Below, piece after piece: positions 3,937-27,534 of a DNA stretch of 29,594 nucleotides. The stretch lies in contig CAJVPP010000573.1 of NCBI GenBank assembly GCA_910592005.1, positions 1 through 29,594 of the forward strand, in the 5' to 3' direction. The DNA comes from Funneliformis mosseae (lineage: Eukaryota; Glomeromycota; Glomeromycetes; Glomerales; Glomeraceae). The notes beneath the pieces were generated by a model. That model saw nothing but the letters and a program-made list of their open reading frames with translations, ran no database searches and had not been told where the DNA came from. The stretch's first letter is position 1. The number at the start of each line of letters is the position of its first letter. A program made the position numbers and the translations under genes.

Positions 3937-6900
3937 ATGGTAAAGATACTTAAATGTCCAGGTTGTGATTGAGAAATAAGAACTGGTAAAACCTGAGATC
4001 TTAATAAATACATGAATTTAAATGAAAACTTTCATAAAGGTCAATGTTTACCGGCTTTGCATTTAATGCAAAACTCAGTTCTAGCTTCAGTAGAAAATCC
4101 AGCTGAAAACCCAGTAGAAAATCCAGCACTGACTCCTGAAGGTGATCTTATATCATTTGCCAAAAACCTACTGTCATACCAGCTAGCCCAGCTGAGAGAA
4201 GAAAATGTGCTGGTAGTCGATCTTTTAACTGATGATATTTCAGATATAAAAGCGGAACCAAGTTCTAATACTCAAAAAGAACAAAAAAAGAAATCAATTT
4301 TAACGATAGATGAATTAATAAAATGGCTATCAAAATCAGGAATAAAAAATAACAAAAAATTAGATCAAAGCCCATACCCAAAACAGATGAGGAATGGTAT
4401 GATTTAATGGAAAACGATGATGAAGATAGTGAACTAAGCGATGATGTGAAATATCGAAGCTCTGCTTCTTCAGAATATGATACAGCTGATGAAAATCCTG
4501 ATATCTATTTCGAGAAAATCAAAGATCCATATATTAATAGAATATCAGAAGCAGAAAATTTTAATGAAGGTGAAGTGTGTGATTATTATGCATTTGTACC
4601 AAAAGGATACTATGCTGAGGGTGGGTCATTAGCCTTCTTTGAATTAATTGAAGAAAAAATTGCAGATGTTTACAGAAGAAAGTTAACTCTAAAAGGTGGA
4701 TTAAAGGTAAGAATTGTATTATTCACATATATGAAGAAAAAAACGCCAGAATCTCAAGAACCTATATTTAAAACTTTTCCTTTCAAGCATGAAACAATAG
4801 AAATTATAAGAGAAGATCGAATTAATGCAAGTATAGAAAAAGGATATAATGAAATTATAGACCAAATTGAGGATGAAGCAATACAAGAATCTGGATGGAC
4901 TTTTGTACGAGCAGTAGAAGTATTTCTTGAAATAAGCACATTCAGACTATTACGAGGTAGTAGTTGGCTATCTTTACCAGAAGATTTAGATAAGCTACAG
5001 CTCGGTTTAATTAATCCACAAAATTTCAAAGACAATGAATGCTTTAGAGATTGTGTTAATATATACCATGCAAGAAAAGATGCACTAAAAGCAGGACAAA
5101 AACCTATACATCTTGAATGTGTAAGCAAGATTAGATGATATGGTAATATAGCTAATTTTGAAGGCATAAATTTTCCAGCAACACTACATGATGTTGACAA
5201 ATTTGAGAAAAATAACCCAAACTATACTATAAATATATTTAGGCCAGTGTATAAAGAAGTGTTCAGAAAAATAAAAGTAGATATAGACCCATTACATATT
5301 TCTGAAAGAAATTATCAAGTCAAACATATGATAGATTTATTATATTTAACAGAAGGTGAAGAGAATTTAAATGACCGAAAAAATACAAATGATATACCAG
5401 AAGGATTAAAAACGCATTACGTATTTATAACAGATTTTACTCGATTAATACGTAAGTGGAATAACCATCATGGAAAAAAATACTTTTGCTGAAAATGCTT
5501 ACAATTTTCTTATAGTCGACTAGATTTATTAGAAAAGCATATTCCAATATGTCCAGGACCAAGTAAAGCATCACAACGATTAATTCTTTCTGAAGAGGAT
5601 AAAAATTATGTAAAACTAAAGTATATTAAAAACATGCTAATGAAACCTTATATAATCGATATGGATTTAGAAGCAGAAGAAATCGAAGTAGAGGAAAAAG
5701 ATAAAGAAGGAAATACTATAAAAATAGCAGAACAAAAAGCAGTTTTATATGGATATACAATACACTGTTCAGATAGGACTATACAAAAACCAGTAATTAA
5801 TCGAGAATCAAAAAATATAATAAAAGACTTAATAGAAAACCTTCAAGAAGATTTGGATGTTATTATAGATAAGCTTTGTGATCCAGTTTCATGTAAAAAA
5901 ATGACACTTAATTATGGCGAAAATATCAAATGGCAAAAAAATGTTGGGGATGTGAAGAAAATTTACATGAAGCTGGATATAATAAAATTTGTGTATTCAA
6001 TCCTGAAACTAAAAATACTTGGGTACTTCACATAGAAAATGTCACGGGAAAAACCAATGATTCAAGGTAAGTTAGATGATGAGCAAAAAGAAAAACATAA
6101 ATCTTGTAAGGTATGTATATACTGCAAAACACAATTATCAGATGAGGGAAAAAATAGAGTAATAGATTATGATCATATTACAGGAAAGTTTCGCAGAGTA
6201 ATACATAGTAGTTGTAATCTTAAATTATGAATCGATCCAGAAATAATAAAAATTCTAGTATTATTATGTAATGGAAGTGGCTACGATTTTCATCATCTAA
6301 TGCAAGAAATAGCAAAAGTGATGGATAAAAAATAGTGCCTATAGCAAATAATTCTGAGCAATATATTACTTTCTCAGTTGGTCAGCTTCAAATTATTGAT
6401 AGTATAAAATTTTCGTTACCTGGTTTAGCTAAGATGGCAGAAAACTTATGTGATGAAAAGAAGGGCCAAACTAAAACACCAGAACAATTGGCAAAATTTT
6501 TTCCAATTATATCAAAATTCATCTCACCTCATTTATTATCATTGCTTATACGTAAAGGAATATTTTCATATCAATGGTTAAATAATAAAATGAAATTTAA
6601 TGAGACACAACTACCTTCACGTGAGGATTTTAATACTAATTTAGATGGGTTTAATTACTGTAATCATAATTGTAGAATAGAAAAATGTGAGCATGGAAAG
6701 AAGATAGGGAAATGCAAACATAAATGTCAGAAATGTAAGCATAAAAAAGAACTAAGTAATTGCAATGAATGTGAAGAAAACAAAGAATGTGAATACGAAA
6801 AAATTTATACCATATCTCAAAAGGATTATGATTTTGCACATACGGTCTGGTAAGAAACAGAATGCAAGACTTTTGGAGATTATCACAATATTTATCTTAA

Positions 6901-8536
6901 AACTGATGTATTGATTTTAGCAGATGCATTCGAAGCATTCTGAAAAGCTTCATATTCAGCATTCAAGCTTGATCCAGCAAATTATTTAACGGCACCAGAT
7001 TTAGCATGAGATGCATGTATGAAGGTAACTAAAGTTAAGCTAGAATTATTTAATGAGCATCAAGGGGATATGCATGATTTCTTTACAGCTATGAAGAGAG
7101 GAGGAATGTCTTTAGCTAGAAGGCATATAGCTCGAGCAAATATTTCAGGATTAGAAGGGTATGATGGAAAAAAAGTGAAAAAATGGTTACTTTATTTGGA
7201 TGCTAATAACCTCTATGGTTGGGCAATGTCACAATATCTACCAACTGGAGAATTTAAATGGTTAACATCAAAGCCAGTCGAGACATCTTCCCTATTAGTG
7301 CAGAAAATTTTATCGTTAAAAGAAAAATCAAATTGAGGATGTTGTTTAGAGGTTAAACTATCGATTCTAAAAGAATTACAACCAAAGTTTCAAGACTACC
7401 CAATGTGTCCAGAACGAATGAAAGTACCATATGATTGGTACAGATCAAAGCAAAAAGAATAGATAGGAAAATAACGTCCCAATACAGAAAAACTTATACT
7501 AACTCTACATGATAAAGACCATTACGTTATTCATTATAGAAATCTACAGCAGCATGTAAGAGAAGGATATGTTTTAGAAAAAGTATATAGAGTTTTAGGT
7601 TTCGAACAATCTCCTTGGATGGAACCCTATATATTAATGAATACGCAACGACGAGCAAAAGCAAAAAATGCATTCAAAAAAGACTTCTGGAAATTAATGA
7701 ATAATTCAGTGTTTTGGAAGACTATGGAAGATGTAAGAAAACGAGTGAACATAGATTTGGTTCGACAGGTAGGTGAAGAATGATGATTATGTCAATTAAT
7801 ATCTAATTCAGCATTTGTTAGTCAGAAAATTTTCTATGGGACTAATCTAGTAGCAGTACATCGAAGACAGATTAATGTAAAGTTAAATAAACCTGAATAT
7901 GTAGGAGCATGTATTCTCGATCTTTCTAAATATTATATGTATGATTTCTGATATGGATACCTTAAAAAGAAATATAGAGATCGGGTAAAACTTTTATATA
8001 CTGATACTGATTTGTTAATTATAGAAATTGAGACAGAAAATATATATCAAGACATGATCGATGATTGTGATTTATTCGATTTTAGCGATTACCCTAAAGA
8101 TTATTAGGTAGTAAAGAATCTTTCAGAAGATTAATAGATAATTAATGAAGAAGGTAAGCGTGTATTAAAAAATACTAAAGTTATAGGCAAGTGGAAGGAT
8201 GAAAATGGAGGAAATAGAGCTATTGGCTATGCAGGAGTTCATGCAAAATGCTATAGTGTTGTATGTGAAAATTCACGAAAAAATATGATCAAGGCTAAAG
8301 GTCTTAAAAAGTCTTTCATCAAGAAAGATCTTATACATAAAATATTCGAGGACTGTGTTTTAGAAGGAAAAGAGGATCAATCACAAACCGCTTAATTCCT
8401 CTGAAGTTACAGATATCGAATGTATAGAATAAAGCAAATAAAGAGAAGTGTTAATCCATTTGATTCAAAATTGTGGATAGTACAAGATATGGAAACGATA
8501 TATTTATTTGGAGATTGTGAAATTCTGGAAGAATAA
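3937..8536 (+). pseudogene. Polinton-type protein-primed DNA polymerase B (PolB1), many stops and frameshifts
   Basis: This is a replicative family-B polymerase of about 1,530 codons, within the Polinton PolB range. The leader has a CPGC zinc-finger-like motif. Next come ESGW.FVRAVEVFL and LLRGSSWLSLP, HHGKKYFC (5470-5492) with LLEKHI, a C..C..DHITGK...H..CNLK zinc region (6100-6227), and exonuclease-like SGYDFHHLMQEIAK and DYHNIYLKTDVLILAD. Motif A is LYLDANNLYGWAMSQ (about 7190-7235). Motif B is KLMNNSVFWKTMEDVRKR (7690-7745), with Trp where Gly is usual. Motif C is YTDTD (7997-8011). The tail RMYRIKQ..VNPFDSKLW matches the family C-terminus. At least 15 stops lie in frame, including 3970, 3994, 5137, 6941, 7007, 7781 and 7784. 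Frameshifts lie near 4405 and in A-runs near 5935 and 6328. The catalytic aspartates survive, but the gene cannot make a full product. Confidence 0.88.
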
Positions 8537-8559
8537 ACACTCAACTAAATCATTTTACG

Positions 8560-8745
8560 AGCCTCAGCGACTTAAGTCACCTTAAACTATTTCATGTCAT
8601 CTGATATCATACGCTTTTGGCTCAACATTATATTTGCACCTAACGATCTGCTCTGCAATAACTATCAAATTGATAACAAATTAGGTCACATTGAAGGAAA
8701 TGCACGTCTTGTCTGTCTTGAATGCAATCAGAATCATCAAGTCTA
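8560..8745 (+). pseudogene. fragment with zinc-binding CNNYQIDN...GHIEGN...CLECN motif
   Basis: Just beyond the polymerase stop, one frame reads LCNNYQIDNKLGHIEGN and then ARLVCLECNQNHQV. The His and paired Cys pattern resembles a treble-clef or HNH-like zinc site. Upstream codons in the same stretch carry stops. It may be a scrap of another polymerase or nuclease gene. I cannot name the family with confidence. Confidence 0.35.
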
Positions 8746-9244
8746 GCCCACTCAATGAGAACCAATACAAAGACAACATTTCCTATAATAATCTTTTTTT
8801 TTAATAATAATAAATATCCAATTCAGAAATTTATAGGTATTACTAGAGTTTGACATGTAATAATTGAGTAAATATGATTTTCGGCTAAAAATATAATTAA
8901 GCGATGTCATGTATTTTATTTCAAAGAAATGGTGAATCAGAAATTCGAGACTCTGTCTCTTCTTTGAACCTAAATCCACGAATCAGAGATCAGCATAGAA
9001 GTATTTCAGAGAACGCTAATTACTTTTGCTAGAAGCGAAGCTTCATTGTTTCACAATAGAAAATTTTCGATATATGTAGTTAAATCTGATCATATATAAT
9101 GATGAAATACATCTATCTCTTTGTTAATACAAAAATATATAGGCATATAGGTGCCGGATGATACATGATTTTATATAGCAGAGCTAGTGTCTCTGACACA
9201 TAATAAAAAATACAAAACGGAAGTGGATATCTATTTATGAAATT
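8746..9244. other. gene-free AT-rich spacer
   Basis: I see no convincing coding stretch. A short palindromic word AGAAGCGAAGCTTC lies near 9030. It resembles the GCGAAGC mini-hairpins found elsewhere in the element. Confidence 0.55.
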
Positions 9245-11178
9245 CTAAGGAGTCGATATGGTTGTTGTTATTTCACCAGAATTATGCTCACTATCTCCAG
9301 AATCAGAATTATATAATATCTTATAGATTATACATGCGATGGCTGTTCTCAGAGTCATCAAAGCATATATAAGTGGGTATACAGCACTTGGTGAAGTTAT
9401 ATGTAATGAAATTGTTGCTTTCTCTATTAGACAGTACTTGTAAATACCTGACTCTCTACACATAGCATAAAGTTCTATATTATCGCCTATAATAAAAGCA
9501 ACATAAATATTCACTTCTGGTTTGTAATATAAGAACATAGTCTCAGGAAAAAAAAAAATATAATGTATTACCTGCGATGTTAATAGCAAATATAGTTAAA
9601 TCCTGCCTCTTGGACGATTGGTTGAATATTCTTTTAAGCTTCGATAAAATCCTAGTAGTATCAATAGAATCTTTGGAAAATCGAATTAATTTTTTGTGAT
9701 TTCGTCGGCGTTTATCTTGACTGAAATTTAGTCTGCCTGTTTCAAGATATACTATTTCAAGTTCTGTATCTTTTCCTAATTGCGCTATGGTCATATAATC
9801 AGGTTTTCGTGCAAACTTGCGAGATCCTTTTCGTATAATACTAGCCGAACTTTTCTCTTCACCTTATTTATAAAAATCATTAAATACGAAACATTCATAG
9901 CCGATACCAAAGTACTGCTTACCATATATCTCATACAACAGGATTTCCAGGTAAATCACTCATTACTATATTTATTAATGGCGCAAGTACTTCACAGACA
10001 TACGATCCTTTGTTAACAGATTTTCCTTTCTTTGTATGGGCTTCATACTTAGGCAATTTCTAAACTTTAAACCTACAAAAGATCCTGCCTGTTCACATTA
10101 CTCATTAGTAGTGACAAGTTAACATATATAAGAATGCAGAATATACTGTGTGATAACTCAAGTGAACTTACAAAGATTTTAATATTCGTCTCGTTATTTT
10201 TCGAAGCCTTTCAGAACTATCTAACCATTTTCTAAATTCGACATCACGCAATTCTTCATCTAAATTTATCTTCAACTCTCATTATGTATAATCTCTTTAC
10301 AAGTATTCATTATCATGTCATTATGATCTAGCTTGTATTTCTCGAAAGGCTCCTTAAAAATATCACAAAGTGATCTGAGCATCTTTGTAAAAGGTTCTGA
10401 TTTAATATCAAGTACTCCAGAACATATTAGATGATTAATCCAAGGCTTTCGACATTTATTTTTTCCAATTCCATTTCTATTCTTTCCCACATAGTTTTCT
10501 CGTAACCAGTGCTCTCTTTTATAAGTTGTCTAACGTCACGTTTCAAATACCGTAAATTTGCATTCGCATCGTCAGACTATGTCTTGGCATCTATTACCAG
10601 AGCCTTTATTTCTGTTAGAGAGCATAAATTTTCGAATGCGCTTACAACCTAAAATTTAATTAACTTAGCTTAGACTTAACATATTTTATTAATTAAAGTG
10701 AATAACAATTCGGGATCAGATTAGGTTTCCATTTTCAAAAACTATCAAAATTGCTAGCAATGAGCTCAATGACTAATATTCTAGGCACATATAACTAGTT
10801 ACTACTATGCGGGAAGCGATAAAATCACAATGGACATTAGCGCATTCGCTAGCATATATACCTTTTAGAAAACCTAAAAATACAAGTCATCATATTCATA
10901 TATTTATTGCGGAGCAATGAGGCTTTGCTTCTATTATAAAAATTTTATCGTCTTACCCGTTTCGCTAATTTTTTTCCTGTACCAAAACTTTGAAGCTTCT
11001 TTTTCTGTTCAACATCACCTGAAGGGAGTTTTTTCAAAACTCTTTCTAGGACATTCGTAAAATTCTTCACCTCCTTTTTGAGAATACCAGTCTATTCACC
11101 ATGTTCTACTCGTGTATACAAAGCTGTAGAAATTCTAACAATATTAAGAGGTTCTTTTGATAAAAGAAATTCTTCCAT
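9245..11178 (-). pseudogene. intron-bearing fungal-type gene with possible PD-(D/E)XK-like core
   Basis: Exon 1 runs 11178-10957 (74 codons, MEEFLLSKEPLNIVR...). The intron 10956-10649 has GTAAG/AG borders and keeps phase. Exon 2 is 10648-10172, then come an exon of about 10059-9923 and a last exon 9862-9245. The core reads KPDYMT..., then ELEIVYLETGR and DKRRRNHKKL. This is like RADGVGYMT / LIYVEGSRP / DKKETDDIKK in the gene at 14135-15858. A conserved D, then E-x-(G/S)-R is suggestive of a nuclease fold, but this is inference. Damage: TAG in exon 1 (HGE*TG), TAG in exon 2 (AKT*SDD), two frameshifts in exon 2, and an A-run frameshift near 9545-9557. The introns mark it as of cellular fungal origin. 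Confidence 0.6.
10906..10930 (+). repeat. short hairpin repeat ATTGCGGAGCAATGAGGCTTTGCTT (intron copy)
   Basis: Second copy of the ATTGC-N3-GCAAT plus GGCTNNGC mini-hairpin. It lies inside intron 1 of the gene at 9245-11178. Related copies are at 3474-3497 and 27127-27151. Confidence 0.55.
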
Positions 11179-11501
11179 TTTTCGTTATAATAAAAAATAA
11201 TAGATATTAGTGTGTAATCCCTATATAAAAATCACGAGTAAGAAATGTAATAAAAACAGAATCACTAAAAGCGACAAGTAACAATAACTTCACTATACTA
11301 CCCTTTTAAACCGTTTCCTCTGTTCATTTCTGTTCTCATTTAGGTATGGGAATAGTGGATTTAGGGAATGTGAAACTGAAGCGATGCAAGCTCATAGGCA
11401 TTTACTATGTAAATATGCACAGTGAAAAAATTTTTCACAAAGAAAATGCGTGTGGCACGAATTGGTTAATCAGATTTAGAATTTATAGTAACAGTCAGCA
11501 G

Positions 11502-11745
11502 GTCATACGATTATATCATACATGAAACCTTCTAATTTATTCTGTGATATAATATGTGATATATATTGATCATAAGTCACACGATTACATCATGCATAGA
11601 GAAGTTCCACAACCTTCTAATTTATTCTGTGGTATATGCTAATCAAACATCTGTGTTATGCAATCGATTTTGGGTTATATGATTACATCATGCATCAAAA
11701 GTTCTATGACCTTCGATTTTATTCTGTGATATATGTATTATAGAG
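11502..11745. repeat. three degenerate tandem repeats, period about 75-95 bp
   Basis: Three copies of (C/T)GATTACATCATGCAT, then A-rich sequence, CCTTC(T/G)AATTTATTCTGTG and ATATATG, lie at about 11502-11565, 11576-11640 and 11671-11745. CATACGATTATATCAT in copy 1 against ATATGATTACATCATGC in copy 3 shows again that most differences are transitions. No coding potential was seen. The whole stretch 11190-11920 has no other gene. Confidence 0.55.
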
Positions 11746-11922
11746 TACGTGCCTGATCAAACAACTTAATCTGTATTACACAATTGATTTTTCAGGCATG
11801 TGGTTTTTTATGAAATATATTAATATTGTCATATAACAAAAAATATAAACAATAAATTTTATTACTTTTTCAGACGAAATCTAGATGTATTAATATCCTG
11901 CTTCACAAATTTCTCTCCTCAT

Positions 11923-12689
11923 TTATAGGTTCCACTTGAGGTAGCTGACTATCGGCATACTAAGATCACTGTCACTCCGTGATATAGATGTATTAAATTT
12001 TGAGATCATATTTGCTAACTCAGATGACGATGAGTATGTCGCATTATTTAAATTCCCGCCTGCATTATTTGTGTTATTGCTTGAATTTCTATCCGCATTA
12101 TTTGTATTTTTCGCATGATCTCGATTGGTAGTTTCGTCTCTTCTGCTGGGAGTTCTCGGATTGGAGATGCAGACCGATCTCTTTGACCAGTGGGAGATTC
12201 ACGGTGACTCTGATTTAGCATTGATGACACTTCGTCAATAGATGATGCTGGTGTTATATTTCCCATATTTCTATTTTGTCTACGGTTTGAGGTATTGATA
12301 GTACGGATTCTATCGAATTCATCTTCAGGCCTCTCCCAAAAATGCATACGAAATTCATCAAAATATTGCGCACCCAATCGATTTCTCTGTGCTCTACGAC
12401 TACCTGCCATATATTCACACATTGCCTAGAAACCCTAAATTTTGTTAATAGCGAGCTAGATAAAAAATAATGCTTTATCGTGAGAACTTACATTATAACT
12501 CTGAACAAGATTCAAAAATTTTTCTTTACAATGATAACTAGTAAAATTAGTATTATGCTTTTGATTGATTTTATCTGCAATACTATGCTAAAATACGTTT
12601 CGATTTCTTCTGAGGTTATGGTATTCTATATTTCTATTTCTTCGTTCTTCGATTAGAGTATCTATATACGCATCTGTCCATTCTACCAT
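11923..12689 (-). pseudogene. Myb/SANT-like DNA-binding gene, one intron, disrupted
   Basis: Exon 1 is 12689-12492 (66 codons), the intron 12491-12426 (GTAAGT...AG, 66 bp, phase 0), and exon 2 runs from 12425. Exon 1 starts MVEWTDAYIDTLIEERRNRN and contains HSIADKIN and CKEKFLNLVQSYN. Exon 2 has CEYMAGSRRAQR, YFDEFRMHFWERPEDEFDR and a Ser/Asn/Arg-rich tail. This is the pattern of Myb/SANT-like (trihelix-type) DNA-binding proteins, with W-x(n)-W helix cores. A TAG at 12590-12588 sits where the domain's second Trp is expected (VF*HSIADK), consistent with TGG to TAG. A frameshift near 12130 joins the frame that ends STOP at 11923. It could be a host-derived regulator; any role in the element is unknown. 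Confidence 0.68.
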
Positions 12690-12920
12690 TTTCAACCAGA
12701 GTTCAACCAGAGTTCTACCAGAGTTCTACCCGTGTTCAACCCATATTTATATTTTATTATATATTCATTATGAGAATGTATAACCAGACTTCAACCAGAG
12801 TTCATACCATTTTCTACTTATTTCGTATCGCTCAAAAAAAAATATATTATAACCAAACTTATTACCTCGGATTTGCACATCTCGGATTTGTTTATCTCAG
12901 ATTTGTTTATCTCGGACAGA
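12690..12920. repeat. short direct repeats GAGTTCAACCA and ATCTCGGATTTGTTT
   Basis: Two simple repeat runs sit upstream of the Myb/SANT gene. The first has GAGTT(C/T)(A/T)ACCA units at 12696-12745 and again at 12785-12805. The second has (A/T)TCTC(G/A)GATTTG units at 12866-12920. They look like slippage-prone promoter-proximal sequence. Nothing codes here. Confidence 0.5.
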
Positions 12921-13095
12921 ACAATCTCAAATGGCGGGTATAGAACATCTATCGCAAAATTAAATCATATGCTTGTAATACACCCGAAATAGATTATACA
13001 ACTATTATCCCAAATGTAGATCCACACACCAGAAATAGATCCCACAAATTTTAATCACATGAATTTTTATATCTTTTATCTATGCATCAGCTGGT

Positions 13096-13275
13096 TCACT
13101 TTTTATTCTTTTGTCGCAATTCTATCTCTTTCTGCAAGTTTAGTGGCGTATCAAATCTTAAACGAATTGCTAGAGGATCGTCCTCAGGCCTATCTAAATC
13201 AAATACAATAAATTCGCCTTTGCGTAAGTAGCTGTTAATAACCATTGATGCATTCTTAACATCATCAGTATATTA
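13096..13275 (-). pseudogene. C-terminal fragment of a second packaging ATPase
   Basis: Read on the minus strand, this is TDDVKNASMVINSYLRKGEF, then IVFDLDRPEDDPLAIRLRFD and a basic tail ending in TGA (13098-13096). It aligns codon for codon with the end of the full ATPase at 17179-17997. Over 45 codons, 24 differ but only 5 change the residue (29 of 135 bases, about 78% identity). That is a diverged lineage once under purifying selection, not a recent duplicate. Homology stops abruptly at about 13275, where a GC-richer block begins, so this is a breakpoint. The rest of this ATPase is absent. Confidence 0.8.
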
Positions 13276-13842: not shown

Positions 13843-13867
13843 AATGAGCTATTTGTCTGGACAATGA

Positions 13868-13971: not shown

Positions 13972-14134
13972 ACAGGGCCCTTGGTCCAATGCTCTTTTGC
14001 TCTATATCCTTTACTCTATATTGTTATTGTTGAATATTTCTGAAATTATACTAATTATTCTTTGTTTTGTCAAGAACTGGACCGCACCACTAAAGAACTT
14101 TAAAAAAGATTGTGCACGAATCAAAGTCGATTTT

Positions 14135-16065: not shown

Positions 16066-17150
16066 TTAAAGTTTAATGAGACCCAATTCTCGAAGATGTT
16101 CCGGAATAACTATATATGGGTCTTCGTAGTACCAAACATACCTTAAAGCAATCCAATTCTCTTCGCATAATCCTTTCTTGAGTTGATCCCGTGTTTGCTG
16201 TTTGATAAAATTATTGGGATCGCCTCCATGAAAGAATTCGTGATATTTTTCGTGTTGGATGCCTTGTACTTCGATTGCGAAGCCATATTGCGGATAAATA
16301 TATCAAGTTCTAGTCCATTTGGATATTCTTGTGTCTTTAAGAAATCGGGTCTGCGGATTGGTGAAGGGGCACCGAGATACTTTGTTAAAATCTCATGACA
16401 CAGCTTTTCTCTCTTATATTTTGGACAGAATGGACACCATGAGTTTGAGCGTTTAACATTATCAAAAGTAGCAAACCATCTATGCTTTTTATCACACATC
16501 CATAATAAAGCTAAACGATTATTAATATAATATTCAGAAAGACAAGCTCCCTTTCTATTGTAAGCCAATTGTTTGGCATCTTCAAGTGTACAAGGCCTAT
16601 TAGTTGCACAATACGGACACCACGTCTTATTATTTTTCACATTGTTAAAAGATGCGTTCCACTCATGCCCTTCAGAACAACGCCATGACAAAGGTGAAAA
16701 ACTATTATCATACATTTCGGAAAGGCATTCTCCATTCTTACTAAAAGCAACTTGCTTAGCATCTTCAATTGTATGACTGACCTTGTTTGCGCAATATGGA
16801 CACCACGTCTTGCCGTCTTTGATATTATGAAGAGATGTAGTCCATTCATGACCATTTGCACATTGCCATCGCATTGGGGTATTAGCATTAATGTATTCAG
16901 CAGAAATACATGTTCCATTTCTACTACGAGCTAATTGTCTTGCATTCTCAATTGTAAGAGGTCTATTACCTGCGCAATATGGGCACCATGTCTTACCATT
17001 TTTTATATCATTAAAACTCGCCATCCAGTCATGTTTTCTAGTACAACGCCATAACAAAGGTGAACGATTATTAATATATCTAGTTGAAAGACAAAGTCCA
17101 CCACGTTCTTTAGCAATCATACATGCATCACTTAATGACAGCTTTTTCAT
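16066..17150 (-). pseudogene. four zinc-ribbon repeats plus predicted PD-(D/E)XK nuclease, one frameshift
   Basis: ATG is at 17150. Four repeats of about 58 residues follow, each with a CLS.YI.N segment, W.C...H.W.AS and a closing (T/S)WCP(Y/F)C. The Cys pairs suggest treble-clef or zinc-ribbon folds. After about residue 240 the chain reads EKLCHEILTKYLG..., RRPDFLKTQEYPNGLELDI. A one-base frameshift near 16305 follows, and the other frame continues YPQYGFAIEVQGIQHEKYHE and ends LRELGLIKL at TAA 16066. D in LELD and E-x-Q in IEVQG fit a restriction-endonuclease-like core. Similar repeat-nuclease proteins occur in giant viruses and AM fungi (from memory). It starts only 28 bp after the ATPase stop, in the same direction, so it may be co-expressed with it. 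Confidence 0.75.
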
Positions 17151-17178
17151 TGTTTTTTAGCTGTAGTTGAATCTCTTT

Positions 17179-17997
17179 TTATAAATCTAATGGAGTATCG
17201 AATCTTAATCTAATTGCAAGTAGATCATCTTCTGGCCTGTCTAAGCCAAACACAATGAATTCTCCTTTACGGAGGTATCTGTTAATAACTATGGAAGCAT
17301 TTTTCACATCATCAGTATATTGACGAATAATTTTAGATATTTCTTCACGCGAACTACCAGAGTTAAACAGTACTAAGTGGGAGATATTTTCACGAATAAT
17401 AATTGGAACTTTGTGATATTTCTGCGAAACAAAAATTGGACTTATATTTCGATGTCGCCCATGTGTGAAAAATGGGATTATTCGATTTTGTATTGACTCT
17501 GGAGCGACGCATAAATCCTCAAAAATAATTACAGTACTTCTCTCAGGTGAAAATGATTTTACACTAGGAATTTTTTTCGGCGAGATATATTTAAATCTAA
17601 TATTTTCGTAGTATGGTGCTCTTGGATCACTTGCAATTACTCCATACATATATCTAACAAATGCCCATTTAGGTTCATCTGGGTGATATCCACAAACTAT
17701 CAAATCATCACACTTAATATATCGGGATCCTCCTTTTTTACCTTTGTATATATTTTCAGCTTTATCTCCCAGAACAAGATTTCCAAGTATATTTGTCTTA
17801 CCTGTACCACTCTTACCAGTAAATACTTTACTGAAAGGCCATGTTATTGCTGGATGTCTAACATTTCGGGATGATTCATACTTTGTGGCCTCATCCATAT
17901 CCATAAGGTAAAGTTTCATAGGTGATAGGCTCGATGAGCCATTGCTCTGCAATAGTTCTTTCTTTTGGTTTTTTTGTATGACGGATTGGGAATCCAT
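17179..17997 (-). CDS. FtsK/HerA-type (A32-like) genome-packaging ATPase
   Basis: This is the Polinton ATPase related to viral DNA-packaging motors. Walker A GKSGTGKT is at residues 61-68, preceded by HPAITWPFSKVFT. Walker B TVIIFED is at 155-161. The FVSQKYHKVP segment at 189-198 fits the conserved Gln sensor. The frame has 272 codons and is open to the end. The true start may be Met27, because the first 26 residues overlap another frame. The stop TAA (DTPLDL*) looks premature. In the fragment at 13096-13275 the same position is CAG and the chain runs on about 13 residues; here the codons after the stop still read KEIQLQLKNN. Loss of a short basic tail need not abolish function. This is the best-preserved core gene of the element. 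Confidence 0.88.
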   Translation of the reverse strand: MDSQSVIQKNQKKELLQSNGSSSLSPMKLYLMDMDEATKYESSRNVRHPAITWPFSKVFTGKSGTGKTNILGNLVLGDKAENIYKGKKGGSRYIKCDDLIVCGYHPDEPKWAFVRYMYGVIASDPRAPYYENIRFKYISPKKIPSVKSFSPERSTVIIFEDLCVAPESIQNRIIPFFTHGRHRNISPIFVSQKYHKVPIIIRENISHLVLFNSGSSREEISKIIRQYTDDVKNASIVINRYLRKGEFIVFGLDRPEDDLLAIRLRFDTPLDL

Positions 17998-18100
17998 AAC
18001 TATAATTTCTATAAACTGAATAAAAAATTCCTTTCTTTTTTAATACCCAACCCATATATTCTGCAACTGCTTGCTTTTCCTCCCTAACCTTCATGTGCAT
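17891..18100 (-). CDS. small overlapping ORF between coiled-coil protein and ATPase
   Basis: From ATG at 18100 this frame reads MHMKVREEKQAVAEYMGW, then KKKGIFYSVYRNYSYGFPI, and ends YETLPYGYG. It overlaps the stop region of the coiled-coil gene and the first third of the ATPase N-terminus. No family is recognised. Aromatic-rich content and a position in a tight same-strand cluster make it plausible, but it could be the true N-terminal extension of the ATPase after a frameshift, or chance. Confidence 0.3.
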   Translation of the reverse strand: MHMKVREEKQAVAEYMGWVLKKKGIFYSVYRNYSYGFPIRHTKKPKERTIAEQWLIEPITYETLPYGYG

Positions 18101-19178
18101 CTCAATATCACGAACCACATAACTGCGATAATCAACAAAGTAAGTAACATATATGCTGATAGCGGTAACATCAAAGTACTTGTCACAATGGGAATTGTTC
18201 CTATCCCTCCTATTGGAAGAGGCAAAGCCTCAGGACCAGGTCTCATCTGAGAATTCGATTTAATCAAAGAGGACATATGTGCTTTAGCACTAACTTTGCT
18301 ATTATTATCCGGTTGTGTAAGGTGTGGAGTCACATTTTGAGGCATAGCCTCTGATGTATTAGATTTTATTGGTATATCATCCTTGTTAATTTCACTAATG
18401 CTAGTTCTATCCTTTACTTCAGAATTAACCTCTGTATCAATTTTTGGTAGTTCAGTAATCTCATCATTAACGAAGCAAGTACCAAAAGTACTAGTTTGTG
18501 TCGAGATATCATCATCAATTTTTTTAGCTTGATCTATACTTTTTCTGCGTACAAAATATTGTCTGAGATTTTTGCTAGGTGAGGCATAGCCTCGAATCTC
18601 TGATTCCTCAATAACTGCAGATATATCATTAGACTTGGTCATATTTTTTTCATCATTTCCGCCAACTACAGGTATTGATATAGTCTCTAATTTCAGATTC
18701 TCGAGCTCACTGACTTTTGAAGCTAACTCGTGTTCTACTTCAACTATTTTGGATTTAAGAGATATTATCTCAGTTTCTTTTTTCGATGAGTCGTTTTGAA
18801 TCGAAATCACATCTTTCTGGGCTGAAGACAACTTACTTTCCAATATCTTTATCATAGACTCAAGCGATCTAATTTTCTTGGATTTTATATCATTCTCAGC
18901 TTTGGACTTTGCAAGAGAAATGTCTTTATTAGCGTTTTCAATCTGTAAACGCCTAGCTTCATCAATGAGTTCGAGATCATGAGTACGTAATTTCTGGATC
19001 ATAGTATTGGACCCACCCAGTTTCTGACTCCATTTTTTCTCTCCTGTTCCCAACTTCTCTGTTCATGATCAAAATTTCGCTCTTGCTTTATATACCTGTC
19101 TTGTAATTTTTTATTATGAGAATTTAACCCAGATATAACTTTTACAATACGAGATTCTTTATCTTGCGCATTGGCCAT
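18091..19178 (-). pseudogene. coiled-coil protein with C-terminal membrane anchor, one frameshift
   Basis: The likely start is ATG 19178 (MANAQDKESRIVKVISGLN). A frameshift in the A-run near 19037 moves it into a 320-codon frame. Residues rich in Leu, Lys and Glu (LELIDEARRLQIENANKDIS, SLESMIKILESKLSSAQKD, LKSKIVEVEHELASKVSELE) form a long coiled coil. A low-complexity Ser/Thr region follows, and the chain ends with LPLSAYMLLTLLIIAVMWFV, a clear transmembrane segment, possibly preceded by a second hydrophobic stretch. No family is recognised. It is upstream of the ATPase on the same strand, so a structural, membrane-binding or scaffold role is possible but unproven. Confidence 0.65.
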
Positions 19179-19684
19179 ATATTTTGGCTAAACTATGTGT
19201 AATAAAAATAAGATAAATCATAAAATTTCCTTTTTTTCTCTCAAGTTTGAAAAAAAGATATACAGTCTGCGGAGCAGGACACTTTGTGTCTAACTTGCTG
19301 AAGATAACTATATAATCAAAAATTATTGTTAACTAAATATATTTGGCTTCGAGCATATAGTGCGAGAAGGCAGGATTTCAGTTAAATAAAATATACCTTT
19401 CACCTGAAGTAATTTGTGAGATAATAAATAGTAGAGGTATGCAAAATGCAATATTGATTTTAACTAGAAAGTATCGCATATCACATACACATATTTATGT
19501 TATATGGAAATTTACAGATATGGTAAATAATTAGTACAAATGTTTACACATATTAAAAAATTTTTAAATATTCTAAAGCATACACAAATATTTCGAAACA
19601 TTTTGAAACGTATCAATATATATCAAATTATAGCAAAATGTTTCGAAAATTTTCTTTATTTTTTTAATAGTTCATAAACAATAA
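19179..19684. other. AT-rich divergent spacer with short repeats
   Basis: This lies between the leftward coiled-coil gene and the rightward helix-turn-helix gene. It holds a 27-bp hairpin repeat (19267-19293) and loosely repeated A(A/T)TTTCGAAACATTTTGAAACG words at 19585-19660. No coding exon is recognised. An AG at 19700-19701 directly before the helix-turn-helix frame may be an intron acceptor. Confidence 0.5.
19267..19293. repeat. 27-bp hairpin repeat, copy 1 (CTGCGGAGCAGGACACTTTG...)
   Basis: This matches the 27-bp words at 25818-25844 and 25942-25968. The intact form has a CGAAG-N7-CTTCG stem-loop; here one arm reads GGAG and the other CTTTG. Read on the minus strand it would encode LDTKCPAPQ in one frame. 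Confidence 0.65.
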
Positions 19685-20221
19685 AAATATTCTGATATAG
19701 GTCGTATTCATAAAGAATATTATAGCGCTAATGCAAGATTTTTATCAGATGAAGCGATCAAAGAAATTAAAACATCATTCGGTAGAGTACCTGATGCTAT
19801 TAATACCATGGCAAAAAAACATCGTATATCCTATATTCAGGTCAAAGAATATATTGAGAATTGGGAGCGTAAACAACAAATGATATACTCTCATTCATCT
19901 CAGATACAAAGTGCAATGTCTCCCGAAATAATATCAATATCTCTAAATAAAGAATTAGAAAACAACTATATATCTTTATTGCAAGGCAGGCTATTAAGCG
20001 ATTCTTTGAATCATGGCTCTTCGAGTCTATGTACTTCAAACAATACCTCAGATAAACAGACAAAAAAGAGGTGATTGAAGTCCAAATCTGTTCGAATTTC
20101 TGATCCAACCACTATTATTGATACCCTGCTTGAACAAGTGTTAAACGAGAAAGAGAAACAAATAGAATGTTCAGATTATGTGTTAAATACTCACAAAGTG
20201 ACTACCTTCAGCAATTCTTAA
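19685..20221 (+). pseudogene. helix-turn-helix-like DNA-binding protein, start not found
   Basis: The frame reads from about 19703: EYYSANARFLSDEAIKEIK, FGRVPDAINTMAKKHRIS, YIQVKEYIENWERKQQM. Two helices with a turn around AKKHRISYIQVKEYI fit a helix-turn-helix domain. A Ser-rich linker follows, with SHSSQIQSAMSPE and SLNHGSSSLC. One TGA lies after KQTKKR (about 20072). The tail SKSVRISDPTTIIDTLLEQ, VLNEKEKQIE ends TAA at 20219. The TGA fits a lost Arg CGA in a basic stretch. No in-frame ATG was found before the domain, so the first exon is missing or spliced. I recall similar proteins as multi-copy in Rhizophagus. It may act as an element-encoded regulator or terminus-binding factor. Confidence 0.55.
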
Positions 20222-20308
20222 TTAGCTTTCTCTTTATTCATAGTTTCGTATTTTGATAGTAAAAGTCTGTTATGAATATTAAGCTCGGTAATGATTTTAA
20301 TAGTCCTC

Positions 20309-23300
20309 TCACAATTCACGCATTTTTTTTAACATTTTTGGTGCTTGCTTCGCTATCTTTGACCGATCAAAACCTTCAAGAGCATGCCATTCCTCTAATG
20401 ATTCTAATGTCTCTGTATCTTGAGCAGTATCCTGTATTACTGTAGTACAACAGCTTGATATTTTACTTGAAGGTTGCTTCTCATTAATATCTTCATTTGA
20501 TTTAATAAAAGTTAGGATAATGTAAGATTTTTCACGAACTGTCATTCGGAATTCATGTTTATCTGAATCTGGAATTTCTTTAACTTTTCAGATAAATGGC
20601 ATTCCTAAACAAAGCAGATAATCAGTTTCTCCGTCATCAATAATTACAATATTTACTGTTTCTATAATCCATCCATTTTTATGTTTACAGCTATTGGTAC
20701 ATCTTTATGCCCACCTATTAATTTTGTTTTATGTTCAGAATTATGCATAAGGAAAAAATCTGATACAGTTCTAAGATCCCATCCTAATGCATTGTTTAGT
20801 GCATTATTCATTACATTACATTCAGATGCACTATTGGAAAATCCATCAGGAATAATTGTATCATCAATTCTGCATTCCATATATTTAAGTGATTCAGTCC
20901 ATTTATTTTCAGATGATGGGTTTAAGATTTTTTTTCGCATTGCTGAAGATAATAACTGGTCATCTGATTCTGGAAAAAGTTTAGGTTTTTTACTTAAAGA
21001 TTTATGTGAGCTAGCCTCTGGTTGTGATGACTTATCTATTAGTGATAATATTCATTTTTTTTTTCATTCAAAGATAGGCTCATATCAGAATTATCATCAT
21101 ACCATATATTATCTTCTTCATTATATTCACTATTTTCTTCATTATTACTATAGTCATAATTTTTTTGTTTTATTGGTTGAAAAGGATAATATCGTTGTGT
21201 TCAATTTGATTTGGCTACTGGTTTTTTGGATTGATTTTCAAGTACCATTTTTTCAAATTGAGATGTCATTTGTCCAATTTCATCTACTTTTGATTCTATT
21301 CTATCCATTCTAGTGGATTGGTTTATTCTTTGAAAAGGTTTTTTAGGATAATGTGAATCTAAATCTTCTTTACTATATATACCTAAATTGTTAAAGAATT
21401 TTGCTAAATAATAATTTTCATAATCATTTTCTGTTTTTAAATTTGATGGGAGACCTCTTGGTTGTCTAACTGGTTCAATAGTTTGTGAAACTGTTGCCTG
21501 TATTTTCTGCGCTTTTGGGGTTTGAACTTCCTTTCTCAATTTTTCTATCTCAGCATCATAATTAGATTTCTATTTTGCTAATGTCTCATTAATCATTTTT
21601 TGTATATCAGGTGATTGCGAAATTACTGGAGCTTCTATTATTTTAGGATTATAGGAAGATTGTTGATAAATTTTACCTTCATCAAATTTGAAATACGTTC
21701 TAGCCACATATTTTTTAATTCAGTGAAAAATGCATTAATACCAGCTGAATTAGCAATTTTCATCCATGTATAAAGCTCACCTGGTAATTGATTTTTAAGA
21801 AAACCTAAAACTTGTGCATCATTGTCCGCTACTCCTATTGTTAGTAGTCGAATTCTAGCTTCATAAGTATCAGGAGTATCATAAGGCTGATATCTTTCTT
21901 GAGTCAATTTTTGAATTGCAGATTGTTGGCTACCTATTATTTCTCTTTGATATTTGGCATTTAAATAAGCTTATAATGTGGCGGGTGTATTTATAGCAGG
22001 ATTTCCTAATGTAAAAGAATCATTCGCAGGTACTGGAGCAAACTTTCCATCTATTTTGCTTTTTAAAACATCGCATTTAACAGCATCATTAAAATCTCCT
22101 GCATTTGCATTTTTAAGAGCCATCATTTGAGGCACTGCAATAGACCATGCTTGTTCTAATATATTTACATAATCATCAGGTGGCATTTGGCCTATATATT
22201 GTGGAATTGGTTGAAAAGATTGATAGATTAATTTTAATACTGGTCGTTGTCTACCTTCTGCCATATTTTGTGGATTATTTTGTAATAATAAAATTTGTCC
22301 CTGCAAATTTAAAATTAATTGTTCTGCATTTCGAGTTCTATTTTTCCACTTTTCTCATTTAAGATCGATCTGGATATCACATAAATGTAAATCATTTTTC
22401 AACGTATCTATTCTGATACGACATTGTTGTAATTCTAAAAAATACTGCTGGCATACAACTCTTTCATTATTATATGCAGTAGTTATTAAGTTAAGATCTC
22501 CTTGAGTTTGTGTTAACTCTGTTTGACGTATATCTCGTTCTGCTTTTGCATTATATCTTCGTTGTTGCTCATTTATAAGATCTGTTTGAAGATTGTTATA
22601 TTTGCGATATATCTGTCGTGTTACTCTTTTTATTTGATTGGATAAAATTGTTCTATTTGCTCCTGGATTATCCAAATAACCATCAATAGTATCGGCTAAC
22701 TCAGCTATTGTTGTCATATCTGGGTTAGATGTATAACTATCTTGAGAATTTTCATCTGATTCATATTCATTTTTTACATTCCATATCTGAGCATTTTGTA
22801 AAGTTTCTTGAGTATTTATAAGTTCTACTCTATCTTGGTATCTTAATAATGTTAATGCAAAGTTTTGACAATGTAAATCTGTAATACGAGTTTTTTTCTG
22901 AGCTAATTTATTATCTCGATCTCTAAGATTATATTTTAAAGTATCAATTTCACGTTTGAGACGTTCATTCTCATCTATTAACTTTACCGTTTGGTTGTAT
23001 GCTTTAGGAGTATTACCTGCAGATTTTGATATTTCTCAAATTCAGATTTTGAGTTTCTTTTCTCTTACATCAAATTCAGCTAATTGATTTTCCCTGGTAA
23101 TAAGTTTCTTATCTTTTTATTCGATCTCCTTTTTAAGATGATAGACAATTTTTTTTAGGTCTGATATCTCTTTTTCCAATTCCTCCCTTTCTTGTATTGA
23201 AAGTTCAATTGTATTTGCTAACTCCTCTTTGAGATATCAAATTCTTTCCTCACGTAAAACTATATCCTGTTCAAGATTGTATGTTTGGCGTTCATAGTCT

Positions 23301-23419
23301 CTGTTTGATTGAGCTAATCAATCGATTTCATCGTGAAGTTCTTGATTAGCTTGGCATAGACCCTTTAGGTCATGATTCGAAGAATCACCTAACGGCCTAC
23401 TCTGTAATAATTCATCCAT
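20309..23419 (-). pseudogene. coiled-coil / Gag-like / retropepsin-like polyprotein gene, heavily mutated
   Basis: The start is ATG 23419 (MDELLQSRPLGDSSN). About 330 codons of coiled coil follow, with Glu/Leu/Arg heptads. The middle reads FQPIPQYIGQMPPDDYVNIL, DVLKSKIDGKFAPVPAND, FLKNQLPGELYTWMKIA and INAFFTELKNMWLER, similar to retroelement Gag capsid helices. An acidic linker leads to a retropepsin-like region: FSNSASEC, ALGWDLRTVSDFFL, NIVIIDDGETDYLLCLGMPF, HEFRM. The catalytic DSGA motif is replaced by NSAS (Asn codon 20835-20833), and a Gly is missing. No CCHC knuckle is seen. At least eight stops (first at 23320-23318) and about five frameshifts. The family resembles a multi-copy Rhizophagus protein. 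No reverse transcriptase or RNase H is nearby. Confidence 0.68.
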
Positions 23420-23448
23420 GTTTTTTATTCACTATAATAATAAAAGTT
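23420..23448. promoter_or_regulatory. 29-bp divergent promoter gap, Gag-like gene / integrase
   Basis: Only 29 bp, nearly all A and T, separate the ATG of the leftward Gag-like gene (23419) from the ATG of the rightward integrase (23449). If both starts are right, the promoters must overlap the opposite genes or be shared. Either ATG could instead be internal to a longer transcript. Confidence 0.4.
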
Positions 23449-24594
23449 ATGATTGAAGAAACAAAGTTTCGAATCTCTGATTCATCTGTAGACCCTTCAG
23501 GTTATTGCTTTGCAATAATTTATATTGACTCACAAAGAGCTCATGATCTTGATTGTGAAATTGCTTTACAGAAATTATATTACAGACCTGAAGGGTACTA
23601 TCGAATTGTTGAAAAAATGCATAATGCATCACGTATAGCTAGTTATAATTTTTTGTTAACAGATATTAAAAACTGGTTAAATAAACAGATAACTTTTTTG
23701 GTTCATAAACCTCAACCAAAATTTATTCAGTATGCTTCTTTTAATAATATACAGAGATTAAATGAAATGCATCAATCTGATCTTACTCCTATGCCTCATG
23801 ATAAAATTAGTAATCGAGTTTTTAAATATAGGCTTATAATAAAAGATGTCGCTACAAGATATCGTAAAAGTTGTGCATTAACTAATAAATCCGCTTCTAC
23901 TATTGCAAAAGCAATTAAAAAAAATTATGAGAATCCTAATAATCCTCTTTCTTGGCCTAATGTTTTTAGAACTGATAAAGATACTGAGTATTTAGCTAAG
24001 TATAAAGATTTATTATTAAGCTATGGCATATTTTTCAATCCCAAAAAATCTAAAAAAAGCAATACTATAGCAGAGCGCGATCATCAAGAATTTAAAAAAC
24101 ATGCTTTCATTTGCCAAGATGCCGTAGATTTTCATTTACCTTTGTCTGATAGGTCTAGAGCATAGGTTAAAGGTCTTCATATTAATGATGATACTTTTAA
24201 TAATACTCCAACCCGATTAATTCATATATCACCTAATGAAGCTGTAAAAAGAGCTTTGAAAGGTGAAAAGATAATTGCTGATTCATCTGTAAAACATCGA
24301 AGACCTATTGGGTTTGATGAACCTCGGTTAACCTATAAAGATTCTGTTTTATATTTACTCGAACCTGAAGAGTTAGAATTTGGTAATAGACGTATAACCG
24401 ATATGAATTGGTCTCCAAAAATTTTTCGTATTAAGGAATCACTAATACAAAAAAATCAACCGGTATTATACTGGCTTATGGATGAAAATAGGGATAGTCC
24501 TGAGAGATCATTTGTAAGAGAACAATTGATAGTAGTTAATAATAATGTAGAATATCCCCCAAATGGATCCTTAAACAATATTAAATTATTCTGA
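23449..24594 (+). pseudogene. Polinton-type DDE (rve) integrase, one premature stop
   Basis: The frame is continuous over 381 codons apart from one TAG at 24163-24165 (SRA*VKGLH). This is most simply a lost Trp (TGG to TAG). The N-terminal region reads LYYRPEGYYR..., DIKNWLNKQITFL. The catalytic core shows MHQSDLTPMP (D111), IIKDVATRYRKS, NVFRTDKDTEY (D176) and NTIAERDHQEF (E209), the spacing expected of retroviral-type integrases. The part after the stop holds [14 protein letters not shown]..., [14 protein letters not shown], consistent with a C-terminal DNA- or chromatin-binding domain. It would insert the element and create the target duplication. All three catalytic residues are kept. Confidence 0.85.
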
Positions 24595-24610
24595 AAGAAT
24601 AAGCCTCGCT

Positions 24611-24952
24611 CTACTCATCTATAAGTACATCTTCAACGGCTTTCTCAATTTCTGTTTCAGTCATAGGCCTATCTTTTTTGGATAGCTTATAATAAAGATT
24701 ATATAAATCTTCTATACTAGTAAGTAGCTCCTTTTTACCTTGATATCATTTTCTATATCTCGACATTCTTTTATTATATGTTTCTTCATTTGGAAATAGT
24801 GTTATTGCTGTATATTTTATATACTCATCTCGATTTTCTGCATTATGCAAATTTTTTACATATACAGCGTATTTACTAATAAGCTTACTATCTTTTCTAT
24901 ATCGAAGACGAAAGGCTTCTTTTATTATTTTAATTTGTGCTGATTTAATCAT
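24611..24952 (-). pseudogene. small helical protein, one in-frame TGA
   Basis: ATG 24952 starts MIKSAQIKIIKEAFRLRYRK and continues AENRDEYIKYTAITLFPNEE, YNKRMSRYRK. A TGA at 24748-24746 then interrupts, and the same frame goes on YQGKKELLTSIEDLYNLYYK and ends KAVEDVLIDE at TAG 24611. The total is about 113 codons. It is basic at the start and acidic at the end, with alpha-helical character. The TGA fits Trp or Arg. It lies tail-to-tail with the integrase, only 16 bp apart. Unknown family. Confidence 0.45.
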
Positions 24953-25243
24953 TTTTCATGTAATAGCTTCCTGTATCGTTAACTCTGAGTCCTGCTTATT
25001 TATTAAACTCAAATTATTATCTGTTATACTTAGTTTATACTTACTCTGTATTTTGTTTTATATAATATAAATTTATTCAATACGAGTTTTATTATCCCAT
25101 CTTCTCATAATTTCATTACTCAAAGCTAGATTATTACAGCTACCAATATATTATTTTTGACTATATATCTTTTTGAACATGTGAGAAAAAAAAACAGTTA
25201 TCTTCTAAATGAGTTTTATAGCTTACTCATCTATTACCAAAAA
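24953..25243. other. AT-rich spacer
   Basis: I see no gene, structured RNA or repeat in these 290 bases between two leftward genes. Confidence 0.5.
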
Positions 25244-25817
25244 CTAGTCTTCGTCAAATATATCTTCTATAATTTGAGATGCAATATCATCCTCACTTCG
25301 TGAGTCAACTTCTATTTTATTAATTTCAATTTTCAGATATTTACTCACTAATTGATTTACTATTTTATCTGTTATTCGTTCACAATTTTGTATTTTTATA
25401 GTTTTTATACTTGTACATTTTTCTGGTATACTTAAGACAGTTTTTGGTGCTATTCGATTACTTTCATAGATAAATATATGCTTTAGATTCTTGCATATAT
25501 CCAATGTCATTTTTAGTGACTATTGTTAAGAAATCCCCAACCACAATCCTTAAATGATATAGTTATTATATCTTGGCTTATACCTACAATGTCTTCTAAT
25601 AGAAATTCATTCGTATTAAAATAATTATCTATTCTTTCGAATTCTATCTGTTTTATATATTTTATTACATTCAGTAATGGTTTCTTTTTTACTAATTCTA
25701 CAAATTTTATAATATTGTATCTATATAATGTAATTCTTCTCCATATTAAATATGTTGCACATTCATTCCATCATTTATTAACATATAAAACTGATGATAA
25801 TAATTTATTATTAGCAT

Positions 25818-25844
25818 ACTGCGAAGCAGGACACTTCGTATCTA
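25818..25844. repeat. 27-bp hairpin repeat, copy 2 (inside F-box)
   Basis: CTGCGAAGCAGGACACTTCG plus TATCTAA has the stem CGAAG / CTTCG with a 7-base loop. Its length is exactly 9 codons, and on the minus strand it reads LDTKCPASQ in the F-box frame, splitting the F-box motif without shifting it. Confidence 0.72.
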
Positions 25845-25941
25845 ATATATCATTTTGTGTTCATAAATGTTGAAATATTTCTATTATAATTTCATTTGAA
25901 AGATTTATATTAGCCTTTTTTAATAGTTTCCTTTTTACTGT

Positions 25942-25968
25942 CTGTAAAACAGGATATTCTGTATCTAA
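25942..25968. repeat. 27-bp hairpin repeat, copy 3 (diverged)
   Basis: CTGTAAAACAGGATATTCTG plus TATCTAA has the same length and register as copy 2 but has lost much of the stem, mostly by transitions. On the minus strand it reads LDTEYPVLQ in the same frame, 5' of the F-box. Confidence 0.65.
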
Positions 25969-27126
25969 CTTTGTATTTTGTTCTTTATCTTGTATTTTTC
26001 CAAAATCTAATAAACTATTTGTAATGCAAAGCTCATTTTTTTCGAAATAGTCAAATTTAAAATTTCTGAATATGGTGGTTTCCATATAACTGACATACAA
26101 TTTTTTATTACACAAACTCCTCTTTTCTCTAATTTTAGCTCACCCATTTCTATTCCCGTTTTAAGTTCTACTTTTTCAGCTATAATAAAACCATCTGTAT
26201 GTATACGTTTTACTTGATCTCCTAGTGGTTTTACAATTTCTGATATTCTTTTTCGTGCTAATACTAATTAGAATAGTTTTATTCGTGGATGTATACCATA
26301 ATTTTGCCCATTTCTTTGCTCACATAAGACACTCTATAATGAAACTAATAATGCTTTACTTACTTTTTTAGCTATTCCACCTTCTTTCTTAATATTATAT
26401 AATATATTTCCCATTTACCAAATATGTCTCTTCCACTAATACATGTATTTTTTTCATATATAAGTGCATTTGGTGATTCATTCATTAAATATACTTTCAA
26501 TCCATTTTTTTAGCACGTTCTAAATCATAATGTGTATAAATTCCATATGGATTATATCACAAATATCTTGTATATTGAAGGCTTTTCTTTAGAGGATTTC
26601 CTTCTATTGTTACTTTATAAATTTCATACAGAAATTTACCCCATTTTTTAGCAAAAGTTGAATTTATTGTATGAAATTTACCTTGTGCAAAAGGCCATGA
26701 TGCCTCTTTCTTTAACATTTCATATACATACATTGAGTTTATATTATATTGAATAGCTTCTCCTTCATACCTTTCAGCAAATACTAAAGCACCTGTTGAT
26801 GCTAAATTTAACCAAGCATTTTCTTTTTCATTTACTTTTTCGCTTCTTTTTGATACTAAAGTAGTTTCTCTAAAAAGTTTTAAACTTGTTAATGTATAAC
26901 TTCCAGATTTTCGCATATCAACTTGTCCATTTGTTTTTTCTGCTATAGTTTCTGATTCTTTGATAATTCTTTTATAGGCTTTTATAGTTGTTTCTTTTAA
27001 ATCCGATTTAATAAAATAGTACTTGTTAGATAAAGTACAGAAATCTTCTTTAACACCATACCATTTTCTTTTTCCATCATAAAACTCAAACCCATTTGCT
27101 ATATTTTTATAAATTAAGATAGTTTT

Positions 27127-27151
27127 ATTGCGAAGCAATAAGGCTCTGCCA
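27127..27151 (+). repeat. short hairpin repeat ATTGCGAAGCAATAAGGCTCTGCCA (inside PolB2)
   Basis: The third copy of the ATTGC-N3-GCAAT family lies inside the open reading frame of PolB2. On the minus strand it encodes GRALLLRNK between the shared leader and the polymerase body, so it was inserted or kept in frame. Confidence 0.6.
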
Positions 27152-27330
27152 CTATCTTGGTAGTTTACGATATTTTGCTTTGAAGTAGATCCTATCTCGG
27201 AGTCGAGTATCAATACACTTACCTCTCTCAGCTGGATTGGCTGGTGCGTCAGTGGGTTTTCATTGAATGAAATAAGATCACTTTTGAGAATGGGTGCTGG
27301 GGCTTGGTTTTGCATCGAAATTGGGTTTTC

Positions 27331-27368
27331 AGCTAGTGTCACATTTTGCATCGAAATTGGGTTTTCAG
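27331..27368 (-). repeat. in-frame tandem repeat AENPISMQN in PolB2 leader
   Basis: The nonapeptide AENPISMQN occurs twice in the Asn/Pro/Gln-rich leader; its DNA word is CATCGAAATTGGGTTTTCAGCT on the plus strand. The left leader instead has ENPA/ENPV repeats at 4093-4125. It is a flexible, slippage-prone linker. Confidence 0.6.
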
Positions 27369-27534
27369 CTGGATTTCCTACTGAAGCTGGGACTGGATTT
27401 TGCATTAAACGCAAAGCCGGTAAACATTGACCTTTACGAAGGTTTCTATTTAAATTTATGTGTTTATTAAGATCTCGGGTTTTACCGGTTCTTATTTCTC
27501 GATCACAACCTGGACATTTAAGTATCTTAACCAT

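Follow-up and report, generated by a model that had tools for sequence, protein, structure and literature searches.

The stretch of DNA analysed here (the window) comprises 29,594 nucleotides of contig CAJVPP010000573.1 (C573) from the Funneliformis mosseae assembly GCA_910592005.1. It contains a Polinton-like insertion of 26.25 kb at positions 2610-28863, whose long inverted repeats encode the start of two different family B DNA polymerases (PolB), one at each end. The insertion is flanked by a 6-bp target duplication, TTAATG, at 2604..2609 on the left and 28864..28869 on the right, whose first base also stands opposite the terminal A of the repeat. The high-identity part of the left repeat, which starts AGTAATATATTAGTGGGCTTTTT, spans 2610..4113 (+) and that of the right repeat 27358..28864 (-). 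Alignment of these arms, of about 1.5 kb each, gave 1397 identical bases out of 1501. Transitions make up 99 of the 104 substitutions, the kind of excess that methylated cytosines leave when they are lost, or that some comparable process would produce.

Both repeats extend into coding DNA, with the starts at 3937 (+) and 27534 (-) lying inside the arms. From these starts both ends read MVKILKCPGCD.EIRTGKT.DLNK...KGQCLPAL, referred to below as the CCHC leader. The leader and the reach of the repeat into coding sequence had been reported in a preliminary description of this DNA, and the arm alignment confirms both. The dots in the left leader mark two in-frame TGA codons; the right copy reads CGA at both sites, and C to T change at CpG fits both stops. 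The left leader (3937..4221, +; about 95 codons, including the two TGA) joins its polymerase gene where ...VVD passes into LLTDD, while the right leader (27202..27534, -; 111 codons, open) does so where ...LILD passes into SEIGS, these boundaries being set by comparison with gene models of relatives. High identity stops near codon 59, after which related coding sequence continues at lower identity, across a 48-base insertion or deletion, to approximately 4221 and 27202. Entrophospora gene models have the same junction, with APAVD followed by LLTDD in P0142, which has the left type of polymerase, and by PGIGS in P0192 and P0193, which have the right type. Therefore, the module comprises about 95-110 codons and its edge is older than the window copy. 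In the 82-Mb genome (4154 contigs), the window leader was found at these two places only.

The left leader opens into a large Polinton-type PolB (4222..8395, +), named here after its YTDTD motif at about 7997-8011, through one frame change near 4353-4407 and many stops. The right leader opens into a short PolB with F-box and leucine-rich repeat (LRR)-like stretches (25244..27201, -), named after its HTDGF motif at about 26201-26187, with 325 open codons, a stop at 26557-26559 and later breaks. Both genes lie in broken pieces in the window copy, which corrects the preliminary description on this point. None of the ten window polymerase pieces scored above the Pfam cut-off. The left pieces match DNA_pol_B_2 weakly (E 0.029) and have matches to relatives elsewhere in this genome; DNA-directed DNA polymerases are among their protein relatives, and an endonuclease VII-like domain is present in some YTDTD relatives. 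Among the aligned HTDGF relatives, 9 of 23 match DNA_pol_B_2 and 12 of 23 match F-box (E <= 0.01). The HTDGF protein P0049 matches DNA_pol_B_2 with an E of 9e-10 over profile positions 167-390 of 468 only, although diverged domains can escape a search by sequence; the N-terminal part of this profile is presumably the exonuclease part. A palm region with motifs A, B and C is present in the HTDGF protein, with D241, K371 and D425 of P0192 in nearly invariant columns; we take these palm residues to be the catalytic ones, and motif C to be the HTDG(F) position. The HTDGF proteins thus resemble DNA_pol_B_2 through the profile matches of their members, but differ from it in having HTDG(F) instead of the DTD form at motif C and in their F-box tail.

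As proposed in the preliminary description, the two polymerases obtain their upstream DNA and N-terminus from the repeat; their profiles show no mutual homology in an hhalign comparison (probability 0.65, E 0.088). A profile search of the PDB with the HTDGF alignment matched three F-box/LRR chains and nothing else, PDB searches with P0049, the ATPase piece and the YTDTD alignment returned nothing usable, and scans of IMG/VR viral contigs with polymerase pieces confirmed no relative. The F-box/LRR-like tail is observed on the HTDGF polymerase of the window (25244-26139, -), at L033:8542-9426 and L040:2833-3516 elsewhere, in P0195 and in many other relatives. To our knowledge, no fusion of a polymerase to an F-box and LRR-like repeats has been described, and this raises the question of what the element needs a second, short polymerase fused to an F-box for.

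Relatives in other species carry the leader on both polymerases. A protein search with HTDGF pieces, in which the 7995 candidates sharing most words were scored, gave 132 proteins (the best 120 of 132 are listed), and a search with one YTDTD piece gave 69, among them one coral and one wasp protein. Glomeromycotina are the source of the named relatives among the HTDGF matches listed and of all 23 proteins of the leader search described below; genera include Rhizophagus, Gigaspora, Diversispora, Entrophospora and Cetraspora, and the lineage was checked for two of the relatives. Among the N-termini of the relatives, the CCHC leader is seen on both polymerase types, with recurring Cys/His positions, as is an amphipathic leader (MSSLLGSIF or MSGLLGSIT). 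Another finger-like leader is carried by one protein of each type from different species (YTDTD P0205 and HTDGF P0067). A search with the leader only (residues 1-120 of P0142), which could find only proteins of about 519-1650 residues, retained 23 of 205 candidates; the body is YTDTD in 11 of them and HTDGF in 12, and within these lengths no other protein type was found. The preliminary description had proposed to look for relatives with the leader fused to either polymerase and for both in one element; the fusions are present, but no second contig holding both polymerases was found. To the extent that the sequences allowed a check, the findings that the preliminary description had named as refuting its proposal did not turn up.

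A tree was constructed of 26 leaders (8 YTDTD and 18 HTDGF, including the right copy of the window). It requires 8 changes of polymerase type, the maximum possible, compared to an average of 7.0 for shuffled labels, and its starred branches force at least 4. The starred groups that mix types include P0161 and P0199 of Gigaspora margarita. P0203 (a fused gene model), P0205 (the other leader), P0206 and P0208 (leader mostly missing) and the left leader of the window are omitted from this tree, whereas P0046, P0048, P0056, P0065, P0081 and P0114, taken from the HTDGF search, and the right leader of the window are added.

A second family in the same genome carries the amphipathic leader on 6 HTDGF and 7 YTDTD copies. 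The 15 strongest repeat places lead into YTDTD in 7 cases and into HTDGF in 6, with 2 not read, near-equal numbers of the kind that elements with one polymerase of each type would give. Across ten aligned copies, identity of the upstream DNA and the leader ignores the polymerase type: C202 (HTDGF) and C2403 (YTDTD) are 95% identical upstream and 96% in the leader, compared to 70% and 71% for C202 and C1017, both HTDGF. The bodies after the leader, by contrast, sort by type in 45 of 45 pairs, with identities of 77-89% within HTDGF, 80-92% within YTDTD and 40-51% for mixed pairs. A repeat-leader tree of 13 copies requires 6 changes, the maximum for 6 HTDGF rows (shuffled mean 4.6), and its resolved pairs are mixed in 3 of 3 cases, one of them starred. 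The body tree of 12 copies requires 2 changes, the second coming from the decayed long-branch rows C2375 and C3566. Copies with another leader in this genome, and relatives in other genera with this leader or with others, repeat the arrangement, which is therefore no accident of the window copy.

The right repeat of the window also contains a small Cys-rich reading frame (27596-27856, +, start 27623), which faces away from the leader and has two in-frame stops; its left counterpart lies at 3643-3876 (-), with a start near 3849. The intergenic stretch between the divergent starts on the right (27535..27622) would be a two-way promoter. From start to start, the gap between small frame and leader is 88 bp in the right repeat of the window and 103 bp in C2403. 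The small frame is conserved in the second family (e.g. L041:3521-3778), with 37-48% identity between families (the C202 row was not counted), is intact in C2403 and has no Pfam match. From this layout, the repeat looks like a two-way promoter cassette.

The edge of the repeat can be followed through a short motif, S(D/E)Y(E/D)TA, which precedes the YTDTD body in 10 of 12 proteins of one leader family and in 9 of 12 of the other. Among HTDGF proteins, 6 of 10 members of the amphipathic family and 0 of 20 of the finger families have it, with pattern non-matches (e.g. P0125, P0159, P0038 and P0205) scored as misses in all these counts. Within the amphipathic family, the two types resemble each other as far as the motif and differ beyond it. 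The simplest reading of this distribution is that the repeat of that family would have grown inward, its edge shifting as the YTDTD end was copied onto the HTDGF end.

The explanation that we favour, and consider probable, is that the repeat serves both polymerases as a promoter-plus-leader cassette, which homogenisation keeps alike at the two ends and which is a trait of the lineage. The window element would be a decayed member of a Glomeromycotina Polinton lineage, in which the inverted repeat holds a small gene that points outward, a brief interval between genes, probably a two-way promoter, and roughly the first 95-110 codons of a gene that points inward. These shared codons open into the large YTDTD PolB at the left end and into the short HTDGF PolB with its F-box/LRR tail at the right end. 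The ends would be copied onto each other now and then, which would make the upstream DNA and leader alike within an element and different between families. Both polymerase genes would be expressed together, and the leader might be a common handle for both enzymes that binds either the repeat or a shared replication partner. More tentatively, and less likely than not, the repeat might be a maintained control cassette for the joint production of a large protein-primed PolB and a short PolB tied by its F-box to the host ubiquitin machinery. A single exchangeable leader, evolving along with the repeat that it serves, would then bring both enzymes to the same DNA ends or to a common partner. The preliminary description had suggested instead that the leader targets each polymerase to its own terminus. 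This is unlikely, since the leaders and termini are alike at both ends and the leader cannot distinguish them; furthermore, one leader family has no CCHC. A zinc finger as a common requirement of the leaders was rejected as well, the amphipathic family having none.

Some of the evidence for the cassette explanation has limits, and other observations weigh against it. Only C573 was matched by both polymerase searches; the contigs are short, and therefore the lack of a second two-polymerase contig neither proves nor refutes it. Among 12 testable end pairs of the second family, for which the flank-matching rule was read off the window, one (C3940, HTDGF, and C2393, YTDTD) has a matching 6-bp flank, TCAAGT, with a chance of a match of 0.005 per pair or about 6% over the 12 pairs. 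The repeats of these two contigs are 90.7% identical over 1295 bases, and the pair suggests, with weaker support, a second element with both ends. The repeat-leader tree contains the very long row C3566 and only one starred branch, and shuffled labels also need many changes, so that both leader trees show a lack of sorting and not more. In the window, pN (nonsynonymous differences per site) is 0.087 and pS (synonymous) 0.110, indicating no selection since insertion and fitting decay. In the second family, the pooled pN/pS over the first 20 or so leader codons is 0.32 for HTDGF pairs, 0.36 for mixed pairs and 0.37 for YTDTD pairs, values that come from non-independent pairs of decaying copies and point, also with weaker support, to selection on the leader.

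Another possibility, though an unlikely one, is that the leader results from mechanical spill-over: repeats of linear elements lengthen as one end is copied onto the other, and by chance their edge falls within the first codons of both terminal genes, leaving a leader without joint function and a common promoter as a by-product. Such growth is in line with the shifted repeat edge in one family, copied from the YTDTD end, and with the CCHC and amphipathic leaders serving the same two polymerases, as if their sequence hardly matters. However, many gene models preserve the frame of the leader on both genes, CCHC leaders have Cys/His at recurrent positions and pN/pS is below 0.4 in the second family. 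Far less probable is that the two polymerases independently acquired an ordinary mobile N-terminal domain, with an incidental overlap of the repeat. Diverged leader homology does extend past the high-identity arm in the window, as such a domain might, but non-coding upstream DNA is also shared and tracks the leader rather than the body, the types are not separated on the leader tree, and within its length limits the leader search gave no other protein type. A one-off recombination or assembly error that placed the leader at one end of the window copy only, a recent event of the kind that the preliminary description had set against its own proposal, is hardly credible: the window leader does occur at only two places in the genome, but the 6-bp duplication flanks the whole element and the same arrangement in the second family and in other species and genera already contradicts it.

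Most genes of the element lie in broken pieces. A packaging-type ATPase (17182..18039, -) matches Pox_A32 above the Pfam cut-off (E 7e-13), and an integrase-like gene in two pieces (23350..24594, +) adjoins the HTDGF end. The integrase pieces of the window have no Pfam match; a related piece in C4079 matches rve with an E of 1.2e-4, under the curated cut-off. No capsid gene was recognised by Pfam among the 10 window pieces scanned. In the window, the integrase-like gene and an adjacent 69-codon frame (together 23350-24955) lie beside the HTDGF end, whereas in C4079, C3333 and C854 they lie beside the YTDTD end instead; in gene model P0196, the HTDGF polymerase continues into that 69-codon frame. 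The polymerases have swapped ends relative to the element core. Also inside the element, repeated zinc-ribbon-like units (W.C..H.W...NIK.G.TWCPYCA) at 16143-17156 (-) gave odd partial Pfam matches only, and a direct repeat of 172 bases (13103-13274 and 17150-17321) is 77% identical at a spacing of 4047 bases.

Based on the Pox_A32 ATPase, the PolB and the integrase-like gene, this is a Polinton-type element, and it resembles Polintons/Mavericks in its long inverted repeats and 6-bp duplication. It differs from them in that its other end holds a second, short PolB with an F-box/LRR tail, and in that its repeats encode both starts. According to the parts of the literature consulted, Polintons are known from Rhizophagus irregularis (Glomus intraradices), the early ones without a detectable capsid gene (PMC7805220), and Maverick copies are among the recent expansions in this species (PMC8647823). 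No description of two polymerases or of a repeat-encoded leader in Polintons was found in the portions of the openly licensed literature searched, and text from PMC11075540, PMC4409740, PMC7824580 and PMC10675037 proved not to bear on the question. As far as these searches go, Polinton-type elements that carry two unrelated DNA polymerases, or whose repeats encode both starts, have not been described. Because the repeat edge lies in coding sequence, its position can be followed codon by codon, and this opens the growth and homogenisation of the end repeats of linear mobile DNA to direct testing. The Polinton-like virus of Oxyrrhis marina (OmPLV) has an unusual PolB fusion, a single helicase-PolB (PMC12721341); a second polymerase and a repeat-encoded leader are not part of that description. 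A similar layout is found in herpes simplex virus, where one repeat contains the ICP47 promoter and the matching copy in the opposite repeat drives ICP22 (PMC10688380). In that system, as far as the source text at hand goes, the shared promoter and intron lie upstream of the coding sequence, no N-terminus is shared and the products are not polymerases; the parallel is an analogy of layout, not of kinship.

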